34,010 nt of DNA from a virus, in IMG/VR virus record IMGVR_UViG_3300025669_000127, positions 1 through 34,010 of that record. One strand, 5' to 3'. A program made the position numbers and the translations under genes. The notes beneath the pieces are model-generated. The model was not told where the DNA came from. It did no database searches and saw nothing but the letters and a program-made list of their open reading frames with translations. Below, one piece after another: positions 1,167 to 34,010 of the stretch (its first letter is position 1; every line of letters starts with the position of its first letter).

Positions 1167-1602
1167 TAGTTTATTTTGTTTAATAACTATTATAGATAGG
1201 ATTTTTCATCTATAATAGATCATAATAATCATAATAGTTTATTATAACTGTATTATACATATATAATAAACTATTATAATGTATTATAGATAAATTACTA
1301 TTGAGCATTTAACCTGGTATAGCTTGCAAGCGTGATTATATATAGGTTTATATGCTTTATTATTATGATTATTATAATTATTATAGATAATATTAAGATA
1401 TAATGGTTTATTAAATGGTGTTAGAAATATATTACATTATGTATAGTATTATATACAATAAAAACAAATAATAAAAAATACCAGAATCATCTATAATAAT
1501 TATAATAATCTATCACAAAAGCACAAAAGCACAAATCAAATAAGTCTGATCCGTGCGTCCGGCGTTTTTTTTTTCTGGTATGGAAAAACATCACCATAAT
1601 GC
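1165..1602. promoter_or_regulatory. AT-rich non-coding region with nested inverted repeats
   Basis: No credible ORF is present. The region holds a perfect 11-bp inverted repeat (CTATTATAGAT at 1187-1197, mirrored at 1208-1218), a perfect 16-bp inverted repeat (ATAATAGTTTATTATA at 1231-1246, mirrored at 1262-1277), and further scattered TATTATAGA/TCTATAATA copies near 1281, 1378 and 1490. A CACAAAAG direct repeat occurs near 1514-1536. AATAGTTTATT occurs at 1165 and 1233 and inverted at 1265. Operators upstream of the promoter at 1138-1166 or an origin of replication are the main options. Confidence 0.6.
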
Positions 1603-1627
1603 AAAAAAACCGAACACACGTTCGGTT
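1603..1627 (-). terminator. intrinsic terminator of small RNA 1
   Basis: On the minus strand AACCGAAC (1627-1620), the tetraloop GTGT, and GTTCGGTT (1615-1608) are followed by a run of T to 1603. This is a classical Rho-independent terminator with an 8-bp stem. It ends the transcript predicted to start near 1764. Confidence 0.9.
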
Positions 1628-1764
1628 CTGATAATATACATTATGTAAACTAATTTTTGCTATCGTTGAATTAATTTGAAAAAGCGTAATTGTGCAAATG
1701 AGCAGATACCGGAGGCTTCAGTTAGTCTTCCTATTTTCTATCTGAAAAACCAAGATCGGTTTAT
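1603..1764 (-). ncRNA. candidate small RNA 1, about 160 nt
   Basis: A transcription unit without a usable ORF is bounded by a TTGACT-17-TATATT promoter (1799-1771) and an intrinsic terminator (1627-1603). The predicted start near 1764 is followed at once by a hairpin, AAACC/GGTTT (1762-1747). Further on, CAGATA and TATCTG could pair around an internal stem, and ATAAT/ATTAT forms a small hairpin before the terminator. No ATG or GTG in the RNA opens a frame of useful length. It lies just downstream of small RNA 2, which has the same plan. It matches no RNA family I recognise. It could act as an antisense, sponge or protein-binding RNA. Confidence 0.65.
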
Positions 1765-1770
1765 GGTGTT

Positions 1771-1842: not shown

Positions 1843-1873
1843 TAAAAAACCCCCGACTATAAACATCAGGGGT
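1843..1873 (-). terminator. intrinsic terminator of small RNA 2
   Basis: On the minus strand ACCCCTGA, an 8-nt loop and TCGGGGGT form a GC-rich stem with one mismatch, followed by TTTTTT. It separates small RNA 2 from the promoter of small RNA 1 and would stop read-through from the tRNA array. Confidence 0.9.
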
Positions 1874-1974
1874 CTATGATCTTTGTTACCAGAGCGATCA
1901 TTACTCCGGTCGTTCTTCACGACAATGTATGGTTAGTCATAACCTCTCAATTTGTTTTCGCTGTCTGAGTCAGC
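1843..1974 (-). ncRNA. candidate structured small RNA 2, about 130 nt
   Basis: The unit starts near 1974, seven bases after a TATCTT -10 box, and ends at the terminator 1873-1843. Read on the minus strand it contains successive hairpins: GCTG/CAGC (1974-1960), GGTTA/TAACC with loop TGAC (1944-1931), GTCGT/ACGAC with loop GAAGA (1923-1909), ACCGGAG/CTCTGGT with one G-U pair (1910-1888, sharing two bases with the previous stem), and the terminator. Start codons in it open only frames of about 7 to 11 codons with poor SD spacing. A longer GTG frame reads through the terminator and is not credible. No known RNA family is recognised. Confidence 0.7.
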
Positions 1975-1980
1975 ATTTAA

Positions 1981-2009
1981 AAGATATCACATATTAAATG
2001 AAAAGTCAA
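1981..2009 (-). promoter_or_regulatory. promoter of small RNA 2
   Basis: On the minus strand TTGACT (2009-2004), a 17-nt spacer and TATCTT (1986-1981). It lies directly downstream of the tRNA-Gln gene, so small RNA 2 can be made independently of the tRNA array. Confidence 0.8.
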
Positions 2010-2017
2010 ATAAAAAC

Positions 2018-2091
2018 TGGAAGGTCTGTCAGGAATCGAACCTGAATTAGTTGGATCAAAGCCAACTGTACTACCATTGTACTACAAACCT
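2018..2091 (-). tRNA. tRNA-Gln (UUG)
   Basis: The minus-strand cloverleaf has acceptor AGGTTTG/CAGACCT, anticodon arm GTTGG-CTTTGAT-CCAAC with anticodon TTG, and T-arm TCAGG-TTCGATT-CCTGA. Discriminator T and an encoded CCA are present. The D-arm is short. It is the last tRNA of the array. Confidence 0.95.
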
Positions 2092-2146
2092 GTGAAGAGC
2101 ATAAGAAAGCCTCTCAGATGGACGTACAAGCACATACAGAGCAAAC

Positions 2147-2221
2147 TGGAGCTAGTGAAAGGACTTGAACCTTCAACCCCCTGCTTACAAGGCAGATGCT
2201 CTACCATTGAGCTACACTAGC
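2147..2221 (-). tRNA. tRNA-Thr (UGU)
   Basis: Acceptor GCTAGTG/CACTAGC, anticodon loop CTTGTAA with anticodon TGT on a stem TCTGC/GCAGG containing one wobble pair, a T-arm with TTCAAGT, discriminator T and encoded CCA. Confidence 0.95.
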
Positions 2222-2227
2222 TTTTTT

Positions 2228-2302
2228 TGGCTCCGGAGGCTGGGATCGAACCAGCGACATCCTGATTAACAGTCAGGCGTTCTACCTCTGAACTACTCCG
2301 AA
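2228..2302 (-). tRNA. tRNA-Asn (GUU)
   Basis: Acceptor TTCGGAG/CTCCGGA, anticodon arm CCTGA-CTGTTAA-TCAGG with anticodon GTT, T-arm GCTGG-TTCGATC-CCAGC, discriminator G and encoded CCA. Confidence 0.95.
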
Positions 2303-2305
2303 ACT

Positions 2306-2382
2306 TGGTACACCCACCTGGATTCGAACCAGGAACATCTGCGGTCTAAACGCAGCGACTCTGCCAATTGGCCTATGGGTGC
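2306..2382 (-). tRNA. tRNA with UAG anticodon (Leu CUA codon), short variable loop
   Basis: Acceptor GCACCCA/TGGGTGT, D-arm with AATTGGCAGA, anticodon arm CTGCG-TTTAGAC-CGCAG with anticodon TAG, T-arm CCTGG-TTCGAAT-CCAGG, A73 and encoded CCA. By the anticodon it reads CUA (Leu). The D-loop and A73 are Leu-like, but the variable region is only 5 nt (ATGTT) instead of the long arm normal for bacterial tRNA-Leu. Charging identity is therefore uncertain. Confidence 0.9.
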
Positions 2383-2395
2383 AGAAAAAAAAAAC

Positions 2396-2474
2396 TGGAG
2401 GGGAGTAAAATATGACCTGTACAGTAACGTCATCATACTCATAGATTTCTACAACTGTTACTCTCTATCTCCCC
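2396..2474 (-). ncRNA. tRNA-sized RNA-like fold ending in CCA, possibly a decayed tRNA
   Basis: A 79-nt minus-strand segment lies in the gap of the tRNA array. Its ends pair as GGGGAGA with ACTCCCC (six pairs plus a terminal A-A mismatch), followed by T and CCA exactly as in the neighbouring tRNAs. Inside there is no canonical TTCNA T-loop. Instead AGTAAC pairs with GTTACT and ATGAC with GTCAT. It may be a degenerated tRNA whose acceptor end survives, or a processed RNA that uses tRNA maturation enzymes. Confidence 0.35.
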
Positions 2475-2479
2475 ATATT

Positions 2480-2558
2480 TGGTCTGGGCGGTAGGATTTG
2501 AACCTACGATCTTCCGGATCCAAGCCGGAAACTCTAAGCCAGACTGAGCCACGCCCAG
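2480..2558 (-). tRNA. tRNA-Pro (UGG)
   Basis: Acceptor CTGGGCG/CGCCCAG, anticodon arm TCCGG-CTTGGAT-CCGGA with anticodon TGG, a T-arm with TTCAAAT, discriminator A and encoded CCA. The D-loop is somewhat long (79 nt in total with CCA). Confidence 0.95.
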
Positions 2559-2598
2559 TAAACTAGAAACTAAAAACTAAAAACTAAATAAAATTATG

Positions 2599-2666
2599 CC
2601 GAGATTTTTTACATGAGCCATAACTCAAACCATAAAGGAGGTCGCTATCACAATTGCGTATCTCGG
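2599..2666 (-). ncRNA. cloverleaf-like relic between tRNA-Pro and tRNA-Asp
   Basis: A 68-nt minus-strand segment is closed by CCGAGAT/ATCTCGG (7 perfect pairs). Inside are three short arms in tRNA order: CGC/GCG, GACC/GGTT with an 8-nt loop, and TGAG/CTCA with a 6-nt loop. There is no TTCNA T-loop and no CCA after the acceptor. The position in the array and four-arm layout suggest a decayed or diverged tRNA. The short arms could arise by chance. Confidence 0.3.
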
Positions 2667-2686
2667 ATACCTATGTCAAATAAACT

Positions 2687-2761
2687 TGGCCATGGATAGG
2701 GGATTTGAATCCCTACTAACAGCGTGACAGGCTGTCGTGCTAACCATTACACTAATCCACG
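2687..2761 (-). tRNA. tRNA-Asp (GUC)
   Basis: Acceptor CGTGGAT/ATCCATG (one G-T pair), D-stem GTGT/GCAC, anticodon arm ACAGC-CTGTCAC-GCTGT with anticodon GTC, discriminator G and encoded CCA. The T-stem closing pair next to the TTCAAAT loop is A-C instead of the usual G-C, a visible weakness in an otherwise good cloverleaf. Confidence 0.9.
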
Positions 2762-3775: not shown

Positions 3776-4115
3776 AAAAACTCCTTAACTTAAAAAAAAA
3801 ACTAAATAATATATAGTAGCGGTTTTTCATCAAGTTAACAAAACTTTGGTATACCGCCAACCATAATACAATCAACAACCGTTCAGCATATCGGTTGATG
3901 TTTTCAATATGCTGTGTGGTCAGATGATGCCCTTATACAGCATCACCGAGATCTCCTCCTACACATGGTAAGTGAGATAGAAAACGGTTTTTTCATCTCA
4001 TGACTTTAGGCCAGCTATCTGCTAAAGCTCCCGTTGCCAGTCAGGTATTTAAGGAGATCATCGCCTTAGTCCCAGATCTCCACCGTAAACCTATATATCA
4101 TCAACCTAAGCAGTA
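3776..4115 (-). promoter_or_regulatory. long structured leader RNA of the HD gene
   Basis: From a predicted start near 4115 to the HD ATG no long ORF exists. Hairpins seen on the minus strand include GGAGATC/GATCTCC (4081-4075 with 4059-4053), CTTTAG/CTAAAG (4027-4022 with 4009-4004), a TGAGAT/ATCTCA stem near 4000-3973, TGATGC/GCATCA near 3945-3922, and CAGCATAT/ATATGCTG (3914-3907 with 3891-3884). The last is interleaved with CAACCG/CGGTTG (3897-3892 with 3881-3876). The GATCTCC segment can also pair with a second GGAGATC at 3956-3950 that is part of a strong SD, so two exclusive folds exist. No known riboswitch class is recognised. Confidence 0.55.
3920..3946 (-). CDS. possible 8-codon leader peptide
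   Basis: Within the HD-gene leader, AGGAGG (3960-3955) is followed 8 nt later by GTG-ATG and six more codons (reading MMLYKGII) before TGA at 3922-3920. The SD is the best in the leader and would be hidden if GGAGATC (3956-3950) paired with GATCTCC (4059-4053). A leader peptide that senses translation is plausible, but the ORF is too short to prove by eye. Confidence 0.3.
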   Translation of the reverse strand: MMLYKGII

Positions 4116-4121
4116 GACACT

Positions 4122-4150
4122 AATAAACCACATTTTAACAAAAAAGTCAA
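4122..4150 (-). promoter_or_regulatory. promoter of the HD gene leader
   Basis: On the minus strand TTGACT (4150-4145), 17 nt, then TTTATT (4127-4122). The -35 box and the following T-run match the two small RNA promoters. The -10 is weak, so strength or exact spacing is uncertain. Confidence 0.55.
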
Positions 4151-4179
4151 GTATTAAATAAAAGAAATTAATAAAAGCC

Positions 4180-5777: not shown

Positions 5778-5951
5778 ATAAGTAGATTAATAGTAAATGA
5801 TTTGAGTGAAATTGAAAGAGAAAAACTCACAAAACAATTAACTCCAAAAATGACTAAATTTATTCCCCATACGCCTTATCCTAAACAAGCTGCGTTCTTG
5901 AATTTAAATTGCCGAGAAGCTTTTTATGGTGGAGCAGCTGGGGGAGGTTGA
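5778..5951 (+). pseudogene. terL: N-terminal part of large terminase, separated by a frame break
   Basis: In the frame two steps from the main ORF, translation reads ...KFIPHTPYPKQAAFLN, then FYGGAAGGG, then TGA at 5949-5951. That is the N-terminal adaptor and Walker A motif of large terminase up to the residue before the catalytic Lys. AAAGGAGG at 5761-5768 is followed 9 nt later by ATA at 5778, with no ATG or GTG in frame. The next residues KSDALLM lie 7 nt downstream in another frame. The fragment is the missing start of the ORF at 5926. Confidence 0.75.
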
Positions 5952-7179
5952 GAGCAAATCTGACGCTTTATTAATGGCTAGCCTTCAGTACGTTGATACA
6001 CCTGGGTATAACGCAATATTATTTAGGAGAACTTTTGCTGAGTTGACTTTGCCTGAAGCATTGATGGATAGAGCAGCAGAATGGTTGCAACCATTTAGAG
6101 TAACTAAAGAAGTTCATTGGTCAAGTCATGCTAAGACATACACCTTTAAGAGTGGAGCTAAACTAACTTTTGGTTATTTGGATAACTCTAATGATCATCT
6201 TCGTTATCAATCAGCTGCTTTTCACTTTGTAGGTTTTGATGAACTTACTCATTTTGAGGAATATGATTATGTATATCTTTTCTCAAGAGTAAGAATACTC
6301 AAAAATATGAAGGATATAGGAGTACCATTACGCACGAGAGCAACTAGTAATCCAGGAGGTCCTGGACATTTGTGGGTAAAAAAACGTTTCATAGATGATG
6401 ACAAAGCTAAAGGACGTATATACATACCGGCTGTTATTGATGATAATCCTGCGTTGGATAAAGAATCATATGTTGAAAGCTTAAGTGAATTACATCCGTT
6501 AGAAAAAGCACAACTACTAAATGGTGATTGGACAAAAACTAGCGGAGGTAAGATATTTAAGCGTAATTGGTTTGAAATATTGGATAAAATGCCAGAAACT
6601 ACAAATAGATACACACCCAGAGTTCGTTATTGGGATCTTGCTGCAACAGATGCAGAAGTATCAAAAACTTATGGTTATATGCCAGCATTTACAGCGGGGC
6701 TTAAAATGGCCAAGTACACAGATCTGCTTGGTAATGATCTATTTATTATAGAAGATATAGTTAGATTACAAAAAACACCTGATGTGGTAGAACTAAAGAT
6801 TAAAGAAGTAGCAAAATTAGATGGTCGTAATGTAGATGTATGGATGGAGGAAGAACCAGGTTCAGCTGGAAAAAAGGTAATATTAGATTATCAAAAAGCA
6901 TTACGAGGTTATTCATTTAGGGGTATGCGAGAAACAGGATCAAAAATAACCAGAGCTTTAAGGGTATCGTCAACAGCAGGTCAAGGTCGTATAAAACTAC
7001 TTAAAGGAATATGGAATGACGCTTTCTTAGATGAAGTAGATTTTTTCCCAGATGATAAAATTAAGGATCAGGTTGATTGCTTAAGTGGTAGTTTCGATAA
7101 GCTTTCACATTTTGCGTCATATTCGGTAATACCTACTGCGGTAGGTGAAGAAACACAAAGTTATTGGCAAAACTCATAA
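5926..7179 (+). CDS. terL: terminase large subunit, main ORF (Walker A split off)
   Basis: The main ORF gives 417 aa. From KSDALLMASLQYVD (residue 11 on) it is a typical large terminase: the Walker B FVGFDELTHF (D105, E106), SNPGGPGH coupling region (141-148), and RNase H-like nuclease acidic residues at RYWDLAA (D237), IIED (about 276-277) and DQVD (about 381-384). The protein packages DNA into the prohead by ATP hydrolysis and cuts it. The ATG at 5926 is out of frame with the true N-terminus, so a product started there would lack the P-loop. Either expression needs recoding across 5948-5956 or the gene is broken. Confidence 0.85.
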   Translation: MVEQLGEVESKSDALLMASLQYVDTPGYNAILFRRTFAELTLPEALMDRAAEWLQPFRVTKEVHWSSHAKTYTFKSGAKLTFGYLDNSNDHLRYQSAAFHFVGFDELTHFEEYDYVYLFSRVRILKNMKDIGVPLRTRATSNPGGPGHLWVKKRFIDDDKAKGRIYIPAVIDDNPALDKESYVESLSELHPLEKAQLLNGDWTKTSGGKIFKRNWFEILDKMPETTNRYTPRVRYWDLAATDAEVSKTYGYMPAFTAGLKMAKYTDLLGNDLFIIEDIVRLQKTPDVVELKIKEVAKLDGRNVDVWMEEEPGSAGKKVILDYQKALRGYSFRGMRETGSKITRALRVSSTAGQGRIKLLKGIWNDAFLDEVDFFPDDKIKDQVDCLSGSFDKLSHFASYSVIPTAVGEETQSYWQNS

Positions 7180-8979: not shown

Positions 8980-10824
8980 ATGGCAGATGATGATTATAAA
9001 GGACCCCCAAGGAAAGTATTTATAACAGATGAAGATGGGGATTATCTTGATTTAACAGATGGTAAATTACCAGTTAATGATGCTTTAGGGGCTAAAGAAG
9101 CTAAACAGGATGATGTAATAACAGAACTGGGTAAGAAAGCAGATCTAACAGAAACACAACCTGTTGAAGAACAATCACCTATAACTGGTTTTGCTACTTC
9201 TGCTAAACAATTACCTGATGACCATAAAGTTACAGTATCTAATCCAACAACTAATCCTGAAACTGGATTGGCTACAAGTGTTAAACAGGATGATGTAATA
9301 ACAGAACTGGGTAAGAAAGCAGATCTAACAGAAACACAACCTGTTGAAGAACAATCACCTATAACTGGATTGGCAACTTCTGCTAAACAGTTACCTGATG
9401 GCCATGATGTGAGAACCATTGAAGCTAATGGTGTACCTGCAGCATATAATAAACAAACAGGAGTTAGTGAGTTATTTAATATCCAAAAGGGTCAGCTCAA
9501 CAAGATGAGGTTAAGACCTGAGATACTCAATGAACACGCTGAAAGTTCAAGGGAAATACAGGCAGAGGTAAACACTACAACTAGGATAGTAGGCCAGATA
9601 TTTAAGACAAGTCAAGATAATATAAGTGCTATTGACCTTGCTATGGAAAGTGCAGGCGGTACTGTCTTTGATAACTTTGATACTTACGCTGATGACGCAG
9701 CATTACAAGCTGTATGGGTTGCTGATGATGAATTACCTGTTATAGAAACAACGATAGTATATCAAGGCACTAAGTCTATGGAATTAGATATGGGTAATGC
9801 CTCTGCTGTAGATGATGAATGGATAAGGACTTTAGCACCAGCAGTTGATTATTCAGGCTATACAGGTAGCATCTTTCTTTATTCAAATAAAGAATATAAA
9901 GATGTTAAGTTAAGTTTCTTTATAGGTGATGGCACTAATACCAGAAGTACAGCCATGATACAGGATAATAAAAATGTATGGACACAAGTTGAGATAGCAG
10001 TAGATGAAATGACAGAGGACGGGGTTGTTGCAACAGACGCAACCGCTATTACAAAGATAGGATTTAGGGTTGATAAAAAGAAGAGAGATGGCTTTGCGTA
10101 TATTGATTTAATGACAGCTATACCTGCACCCGGAACTGTAACCGTAAGATTATGGGACATGGGTACGGATATACCAACAGGCTCAACAAGTATTGATGAT
10201 GGTACACAGTATGTAACATTAGGAGATCTAGGTATTACTGGTAAACAAATATCAGAAGATGAGGTTGACTTACTAGGTGGATTTAGGACTTACCATTTGC
10301 ATAACTTTGTGGCGGGGGTAGCTTTAGAGTTTCCTGCTAATGTTCTTTTAAATGTAGACCACTATTATGCGATTACGATAAATTGGGTTGATACAGATGT
10401 AAGCATCTATGGCCCGATATCCACCAACAGCTATGACTACTATGAGAATGGCTTTGCATTTACAGCACCTGATGAAGCGACAGCCATAACACTATTAGGC
10501 GCAAACCATGATTTGATGTTTGCAGTATATTCTACCCAAGATGTCTATGTTATAAATATGCGACACTCTGCAGATGCAGCTCCTGGGTTCGGTTCTACAT
10601 TTAACGTCTATATTGAGGACTCAAACATGACAAGGACTTGCTCAATCAACACTATCTCTAAAGGACAGCAAACAGTTAAATTTGACAACCTAAGTTCTAA
10701 CCCTTGCTTTATGGAGAAGGGTTCCAAGATAGAAGAAGAATATGATGATGACTTTACAGATAGCGTATCAATAATTGATATGGGATTTAGATTTTTATAT
10801 ATACCGCCCACACCACATGGATAG
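8980..10824 (+). CDS. virion structural protein with tandem repeat and jelly-roll-like region
   Basis: This 614-aa protein follows the portal directly. Residues about 30-145 contain two copies of a 60-residue module (ADLTETQPVEEQ, SPITGFATSAKQLP) encoded by near-identical DNA. Residues about 225-390 (YADDAALQAVW, SMELDMG, DVKLSFFIGDG) read like a beta-sandwich, galactose-binding type domain. The C-terminal part is beta-rich. No catalytic motif is seen. The position between portal and head protease suggests a head-associated or whisker/adhesion protein. SD AAGGAGGG before ATG 8980 is strong. Confidence 0.6.
   Translation: MADDDYKGPPRKVFITDEDGDYLDLTDGKLPVNDALGAKEAKQDDVITELGKKADLTETQPVEEQSPITGFATSAKQLPDDHKVTVSNPTTNPETGLATSVKQDDVITELGKKADLTETQPVEEQSPITGLATSAKQLPDGHDVRTIEANGVPAAYNKQTGVSELFNIQKGQLNKMRLRPEILNEHAESSREIQAEVNTTTRIVGQIFKTSQDNISAIDLAMESAGGTVFDNFDTYADDAALQAVWVADDELPVIETTIVYQGTKSMELDMGNASAVDDEWIRTLAPAVDYSGYTGSIFLYSNKEYKDVKLSFFIGDGTNTRSTAMIQDNKNVWTQVEIAVDEMTEDGVVATDATAITKIGFRVDKKKRDGFAYIDLMTAIPAPGTVTVRLWDMGTDIPTGSTSIDDGTQYVTLGDLGITGKQISEDEVDLLGGFRTYHLHNFVAGVALEFPANVLLNVDHYYAITINWVDTDVSIYGPISTNSYDYYENGFAFTAPDEATAITLLGANHDLMFAVYSTQDVYVINMRHSADAAPGFGSTFNVYIEDSNMTRTCSINTISKGQQTVKFDNLSSNPCFMEKGSKIEEEYDDDFTDSVSIIDMGFRFLYIPPTPHG
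9102..9368 (+). repeat. 87-bp identical direct repeat, 180-bp period
   Basis: Bases 9102-9188 and 9282-9368 are identical, and similarity continues downstream with a few changes. The period is 180 bp, 60 codons, so the frame is kept. It encodes the duplicated module in the structural protein at 8980. The lack of silent differences marks a recent duplication or gene conversion. Confidence 0.9.
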
Positions 10825-33178: not shown

Positions 33179-34010
33179 TTTGTTCCTTTCTTGTTATTGT
33201 TTTTGTTATTGTTATTTGCTGTTTCTAATTCATAAATATCTTGGAATATAGGATCTATCAAGTAAGAATCCTTAAAGTTGACGAACCTACTCTTAGCTTG
33301 GAATGTATTACCAGGCTGTAACATAAGATACCTATGCGTCTCTTTGGTTTCTGCGTCAGTTTCAAGTGTATAATATCCTACATGATCCATGAATCCCTGA
33401 ATCTCATTACCAAGTTTGCCCTGAATATTAGGAGCATAGAATCGTCTATTAAATTCATCCTTATCCCATTGTCTTGAACATACAAATATTACATGCATGG
33501 GTAAATCCCTGAACTTTCTTACCAATAGTAACATCATTTCCTGTCTACTATTCCACTCTGCATATTCTGGACGCTGTGGTATCTCATTCAATTTAGTAGT
33601 CTCTATATTAACTCCCATAAGTTTATACATACAATATCTTGCAACTTCTGATAATGAATCGATAATAACTGTGTTATATATACGTGGTGCTTTAATATCT
33701 TTAGCATTAATATTTCTAAAATGTGCCTCTGAAAGTTTAAGATTTTCCACATCATCATTATCCCTGAACAAACAGTGCGCTCTTAAGTATTCATACACAT
33801 TAGAAAATGTATCATAATCTCTTACATTTATAGATGGTATATCTCCTCTACTGGCCAGTACTTTATTACCACCTTCAGCATCTATGTTTAGGACATTTGC
33901 CATGTCTGAAACATCTTGTGCAGTACCAGCTAGAGTAGTCTTTCCAGTTCCATATTCTCCATATATCTGTAGCTTAATATAACTACGCTCTTCCCCTGGG
34001 AATGTTATAT
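33175..34010 (-). CDS. RecA-like ATPase, Sak4-type recombinase (5' end outside the window)
   Basis: The frame is open to the window edge; an ATG at 33903 is internal. Upstream of it the frame reads LQIYGEYGTGKTTLAGT, a Walker A P-loop, then VLNIDAEGGN. YNTVIIDSLSEVARY holds the Walker B D and VIFVCSRQWDKDEF follows. This fits AAA_24/Sak4-type single-strand annealing recombinases. The C-terminus is Asn/Lys-rich. Located before the ssDNA-binding gene, it likely acts in replication and recombination. The true start lies beyond 34010. Confidence 0.75.
   Translation of the reverse strand, partial: ITFPGEERSYIKLQIYGEYGTGKTTLAGTAQDVSDMANVLNIDAEGGNKVLASRGDIPSINVRDYDTFSNVYEYLRAHCLFRDNDDVENLKLSEAHFRNINAKDIKAPRIYNTVIIDSLSEVARYCMYKLMGVNIETTKLNEIPQRPEYAEWNSRQEMMLLLVRKFRDLPMHVIFVCSRQWDKDEFNRRFYAPNIQGKLGNEIQGFMDHVGYYTLETDAETKETHRYLMLQPGNTFQAKSRFVNFKDSYLIDPIFQDIYELETANNNNKNNNKKGTK

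Follow-up and report, generated by a model that had tools for sequence, protein, structure and literature searches.

The DNA analyzed here is an IMG/VR virus record of 34,010 bases, referred to in full as the window. Its terminase, portal, major head, tape-measure, and DNA polymerase genes identify the source as a tailed phage. Since a contig from another sample (G019) extends 24.3 kb beyond base 34010, the window represents a genome fragment. Rightward late genes start at ∼4199. Among annotated terminases in the phage collection, those nearest to the terminase at 5926 to 7179 belong to the archaeal phages psiM2 and psiM100 (43% identity). A 614-aa open reading frame (ORF) without a PHROG match contains a 124-bp direct repeat (9102 to 9225 and 9282 to 9405, 96% identical). 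Reading leftward from ∼4150, a structured leader is followed by genes for an HD-domain protein and a CxxCxxCC protein, six tRNA genes, and the region of the candidate RNA, termed RNA1. Contigs of the same phage from other samples (99.9 to 100% identical) stop at 3947 and 4153, and contigs G001 and G019 share a 127-base overlap; because of these contig ends and this overlap, the left 4 kb may differ among strains. Within this part, a 26-bp unit, TTACTATTGCTCCAGATGCTATCCTG, is present in four exact tandem copies (61 to 164).

The six tRNA genes (Asp, Pro, Leu, Asn, Thr, and Gln; 2018 to 2761, minus strand) lie immediately upstream of RNA1 and on the same strand, in agreement with an earlier note on this DNA that had placed the candidate next to a tRNA array. 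Two spacers of the array (2397 to 2475 and 2590 to 2670, minus strand) are both enclosed by acceptor-like stems of 6 to 7 bp (GGGGAG...CTCCCC, followed by TCCA, and CCGAGAT...ATCTCGG). Neither was matched by a tRNA model, and their fold z values were -1.2 and -2.3, respectively; possible identities are degenerate tRNAs or additional small stable RNAs.

Promoter-terminator units next to the tRNA array

An extended -10 promoter, TTGACT-17-TATCTT, is located on the minus strand at 1981 to 2009 (-35 hexamer at 2009 to 2004, -10 hexamer at 1986 to 1981) and matches 9 of 12 consensus positions. The earlier note had proposed the same promoter, which we confirmed, adding the extended -10 TG one base ahead of the -10 hexamer. 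It had also claimed a start at 1974, falling on the first base of the hairpin GCTG-ACTCAGA-CAGC. The two positions do coincide, and this start is plausible as a prediction. The strong intrinsic terminator that it had described is likewise predicted, ∼100 bases past the start (1843 to 1875, minus strand); we find it to consist of an 11-pair stem (1875 to 1847) and a U-run. Together with its fold and the lack of an Rfam match, this promoter-terminator arrangement delimits RNA1 as a predicted non-coding RNA of 132 nt (1843 to 1974, minus strand).

Promoter-terminator units were counted by requiring a -35 hexamer matching at 5 of 6 positions, an extended -10, and an intrinsic terminator 60 to 275 nt on. 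By this rule, the window contains two units, RNA1 and a second one termed RNA2, compared to 0.025 per shuffled window, and none of 200 shuffles of the window contained two. The same two units are the only ones across ∼58 kb of this phage. The RNA1 unit thus exceeds chance expectation, and it is in this respect, as a promoter-terminator unit, that the earlier description of the locus as unlikely by chance is true.

RNA2 (1602 to 1769, minus strand) is a sister unit with no ORF, recognized by its promoter, its terminator (1629 to 1606), and a shared repeat family. Its promoter, TTGACT-17-TATATT (1799 to 1771), is of the same type as that of RNA1. Without the terminator, the interior of RNA2 was no more structured than shuffled sequences (z = +0.66). 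One 40-nt repeat family spans the promoters of RNA1, RNA2 (1770 to 1809), and the leader starting at 4124 (4121 to 4160), and ATTTGACTTTT occurs twice in the window, compared to 0.08 expected occurrences.

The third copy of this element precedes a leader of ∼350 nt (3776 to 4124, minus strand; -95 kcal/mol) ahead of the HD-domain gene. This leader contains a good H-type pseudoknot (3914 to 3871), the third-best in the window, and an 8-codon ORF behind AGGAGG (GTG at 3946 to 3944, stop at 3922 to 3920). Leader-peptide or riboswitch-like control is possible for this gene. On the other side, the segment from 1140 to 1510, which separates RNA2 from the small leftward genes, has a GC content of 15 to 25% and many long inverted repeats; it might contain an origin of replication or have a regulatory function.

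Since transcripts reading through the tRNA array would stop at the same terminator, the main alternative is that the tRNA operon ends here, with RNA1 being its terminator and trimmed 3' trailer and the promoter-like sequence being incidental or only boosting downstream reading. The earlier note, which had proposed an independent small RNA, had overlooked this option; what is supported of its proposal is a separate gene. A trailer would be consistent with the position of the -35 hexamer, which sits 9 nt beyond the 3' end of tRNA-Gln, the last of the six same-strand tRNAs, and with the absence of any other terminator of the scanned kind between tRNA-Gln and 1875. However, an extended -10 promoter carrying the 40-nt element of RNA2 is placed exactly between the tRNA and RNA1, which argues against it. 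Overall, we regard the trailer as possible, if rather unlikely.

Fold of RNA1 and a predicted pseudoknot

RNA1 folds with -37.5 kcal/mol (z = -2.6 to -3.1 versus shuffles). Without its terminator, it was weakly better than shuffles (z = -1.8). Hairpins 1 to 3 alone were not significant (z = -0.95), whereas hairpin 4 with the adjoining linker reached a z of -3.4. The fold advantage of RNA1 thus comes mostly from the terminator and hairpin 4. Hairpin 1 (GCTG-ACTCAGA-CAGC; 1960 to 1974, minus strand), which starts at the predicted +1, and hairpin 2 (GGTTA-TGAC-TAACC; 1931 to 1944, minus strand) were present in both the minimum free energy (MFE) and the centroid structures. Hairpin 3 (GTCGT-GAAGA-ACGAC; 1909 to 1923, minus strand) keeps only its 3 inner pairs in the MFE structure because hairpin 4 takes bases 1910 to 1909. 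The earlier note had described four tight hairpins with structure across all stems. The fold as a whole does beat shuffles, with a z of about -3, but tightness across all stems is overstated, the first three hairpins lacking individual significance, and a likely pseudoknot had been overlooked. The lack of significance of hairpins 1 to 3 would also be in line with a tRNA operon trailer.

Hairpin 4 and the linker likely form an H-type pseudoknot of 35 nt (1876 to 1910, minus strand), as predicted by pseudoknot scoring and comparison with shuffles. In this model, stem S1 consists of 8 pairs between 1910 to 1903 and 1895 to 1888 (ACCGGAGU/GCUCUGGU). Stem S2 joins 1901 to 1896 and 1881 to 1876 (AUGAUC/GAUCAU) through perfect complementarity of the hairpin 4 loop with the pre-terminator linker. 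Loop L1 is a single A (1902), L2 is absent, and L3 is AACAAA (1887 to 1882). A 1-nt L1 over a 6-bp S2 and an A-rich L3 are typical of H-type geometry. The pseudoknot is the top-scoring one in the 34-kb window on both strands, and an equally good one arose in 1 of 2000 RNA1 shuffles. The loop-linker match alone had a P value of 0.008 by composition, or 0.02 if G-U pairs were allowed. Since 0.48 pseudoknots of equal quality are expected per shuffled window, this one is notable mainly for its location inside RNA1. A pseudoknot would be superfluous in a mere trailer, and it suits protein binding better than a base-pairing role.

That RNA1 might regulate phage or host mRNAs through base pairing appears very improbable to us. 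Two segments (1959 to 1945 and 1887 to 1876) were partly open in the accessibility calculation and could pair, but across 73 phage translation starts, the best duplexes did not outscore those of shuffled RNA. Scores were -17.0 versus a shuffle median of -15.9 and a best shuffle of -20.2 and, in a second set of figures for the same 73 starts, -28.5 versus -28.3 and -34.7 for shuffles. An antisense function toward the phage's own translation starts was hence left unsupported, its duplexes matching the shuffle level.

Coding potential and searches for relatives

The sole ORF of at least 50 aa at the locus starts with GTG and encodes 60 aa (1738 to 1920, read from 1920 to 1738). It had no match in Pfam and was rejected as a gene, as it spans terminator and promoter; the earlier statement that there is no credible ORF is thereby borne out. 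Two micro-ORFs encode MTNHTLS (7 codons, 1940 to 1917) and MIALVTKIIDP (11 codons, 1901 to 1866), and both have a Shine-Dalgarno-like sequence just 2 nt before the start codon, a poor spacing. With no convincing ORF found, RNA1 would seem to lack a protein-coding function, the two micro-ORFs being possible exceptions.

Either micro-ORF, or the pseudoknot, could in principle sense translation and thereby determine how much transcription continues past the terminator to RNA2 and to the small genes that read leftward below 1104, which would make RNA1 a leader or attenuator. Both micro-ORFs are located just ahead of the terminator, after purine-rich sequence, and the downstream small genes are read in the same direction. 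However, RNA2, which has a promoter and a terminator of its own, comes next, and beyond it ∼350 nt of 15 to 25% GC and another promoter (1166 to 1138) follow. Moreover, no competing antiterminator was observed, and the 2-nt Shine-Dalgarno spacings also speak against sensing of this kind. We consider an attenuator quite unlikely.

The earlier note had recognized no known family, and the Rfam covariance-model search likewise left RNA1 unmatched at gathering or relaxed thresholds. The best scores overlapping RNA1 were 18 to 21.5 bits, compared to gathering scores of 39 to 54, and the weak overlaps with PyrR, His leader, and NsiR1 were judged to be chance matches. No match was obtained with tRNA models or ARAGORN, and both a tRNA-like and a ribozyme reading of RNA1 were rejected for want of a family match and for their unfitting topology. 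By blastn, the segment from 1830 to 2017 yielded merely two AT-rich promoter matches (E = 0.05 to 0.6) among 50,697 phage records, and no relative of RNA1 was found among plasmids. Pattern searches, which reach close relatives only, returned zero hits for three exact or degenerate patterns (hairpins 2 and 4) in 2.9 million IMG/VR contigs and for one hairpin 4 pattern in 84,980 prokaryote genomes. A single-sequence covariance model of RNA1 run over related loci gave nothing credible; its best extra match (L033, 10546 to 10439) lies within a small reading frame and was discarded as spurious. Searches with the neighboring proteins revealed no relative carrying the RNA1 region. RNA1 is known from one contig because the other contigs of the same phage end at 3947 or 4153 or, like G019, lie elsewhere in the genome. 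The unit count, together with the lack of an Rfam match and of homologues, supports the earlier view of a separate small RNA gene outside described families.

Proposed role and comparison with known systems

The reading that we favor, with moderate confidence, is that RNA1 is a stable phage non-coding RNA of ∼130 nt that acts in trans through its pseudoknot as a protein ligand. We infer from the promoter that host RNA polymerase with the housekeeping sigma factor would start near 1974, and from the terminator hairpin that transcription would stop near 1843. Transcripts continuing past the tRNA array would also be halted by this terminator and feed the same RNA, and the trailer and the stable trans-acting RNA may be partly true together. 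The likeliest working part would be the 35-nt pseudoknot stacked on the terminator, while the 5' hairpins and the terminator would confer stability. RNA1 would then serve as a folded ligand rather than as an antisense RNA, and its partner would be a protein, for example a nuclease or an RNA-binding protein of the host. The earlier note had suggested that the RNA could bind a host protein, sponge a host RNA, or act in anti-defence, all of which are conjectural.

A single ∼35-nt pseudoknot could more specifically be an anti-defence decoy that mimics a type III antitoxin RNA (ToxI, CptI, or TenpI class) and neutralizes a host ToxN-type nuclease. There is phage precedent for this in pseudo-ToxI of PhiTE, a pseudoknot RNA which the phage can use against defence (PMC3475682). 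The predicted pseudoknot of RNA1, if formed, would share with these RNAs the position ahead of a terminator, and its 35-nt size and predicted fold resemble the 36-nt ToxI unit. Unlike type III antitoxins, however, RNA1 has a single unit, and tandem repeats are absent over 1843 to 1974, whereas PhiTE required expanded repeats closely like its target antitoxin (PMC3475682). In addition, no Rfam antitoxin matched even at E ≤ 10. A search of G000, G001, and G019 for ToxN (PF13958) gave no match but was uninformative, as control genomes were equally silent. Such a decoy seems to us highly doubtful.

RNA1 is a credible candidate for a small-RNA gene of a type already described in phages; it very probably gives rise to a non-coding RNA and is an orphan in sequence. 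We think it distinctly unlikely that it founds a novel class of pseudoknot RNAs in phages, one that is made from its own early promoter beside tRNA genes, sequesters an RNA-binding protein of the host or a nuclease involved in defence, and thus inhibits host immunity or RNA decay. Should RNA1 prove to bind a host protein, it would enlarge the small set of RNA-based countermeasures described for phages. For now, it is a prediction without known relatives, derived from a single contig of an uncultured phage. Its predicted pseudoknot is specific and mutable, since S1 or S2 could be disrupted and then repaired through compensatory mutations, and therefore offers a direct handle.

Theta ribozymes have the topology of an HDV-like nested double pseudoknot. 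Similar to RNA1, they are structured RNAs adjoining phage tRNA genes (PMC10879173), but RNA1 has no P3 element and matched no ribozyme family. The gene 32 mRNA of T2 and T4 contains a phage H-type pseudoknot that is bound by a protein, gp32 (PMC3014915). That pseudoknot acts in cis as an operator within a 5' leader, whereas no gene lies ahead of the terminator in RNA1. Closer in setting are RNA C and RNA D of T4, small RNAs from the tRNA region of the phage without an established role (PMC3014915). T4 is an unrelated phage, and blastn of the phage collection revealed no related sequence; RNA1 differs in having its own predicted promoter and terminator, its expression being predicted only. In the Pseudomonas phage PAK_P3, sRNA1 and sRNA2 are, as predicted for RNA1, small and non-coding, with a length of ∼100 nt, and sRNA2 is located between two tRNA genes and abundant late (PMC4933390). 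sRNA2, likewise without an established role, carries 11 nt that match the T-loop of host tRNAs; no such match is visible in RNA1, and there was no blastn match. Structured non-coding RNAs of ∼100 and 180 nt have also been found in PhiKZ by Grad-seq (PMC8545117). By the searches run, RNA1 is a homologue of none of these; its nearest known counterparts are T4 RNA C and RNA D and PAK_P3 sRNA2, which it appears to resemble in position and form.
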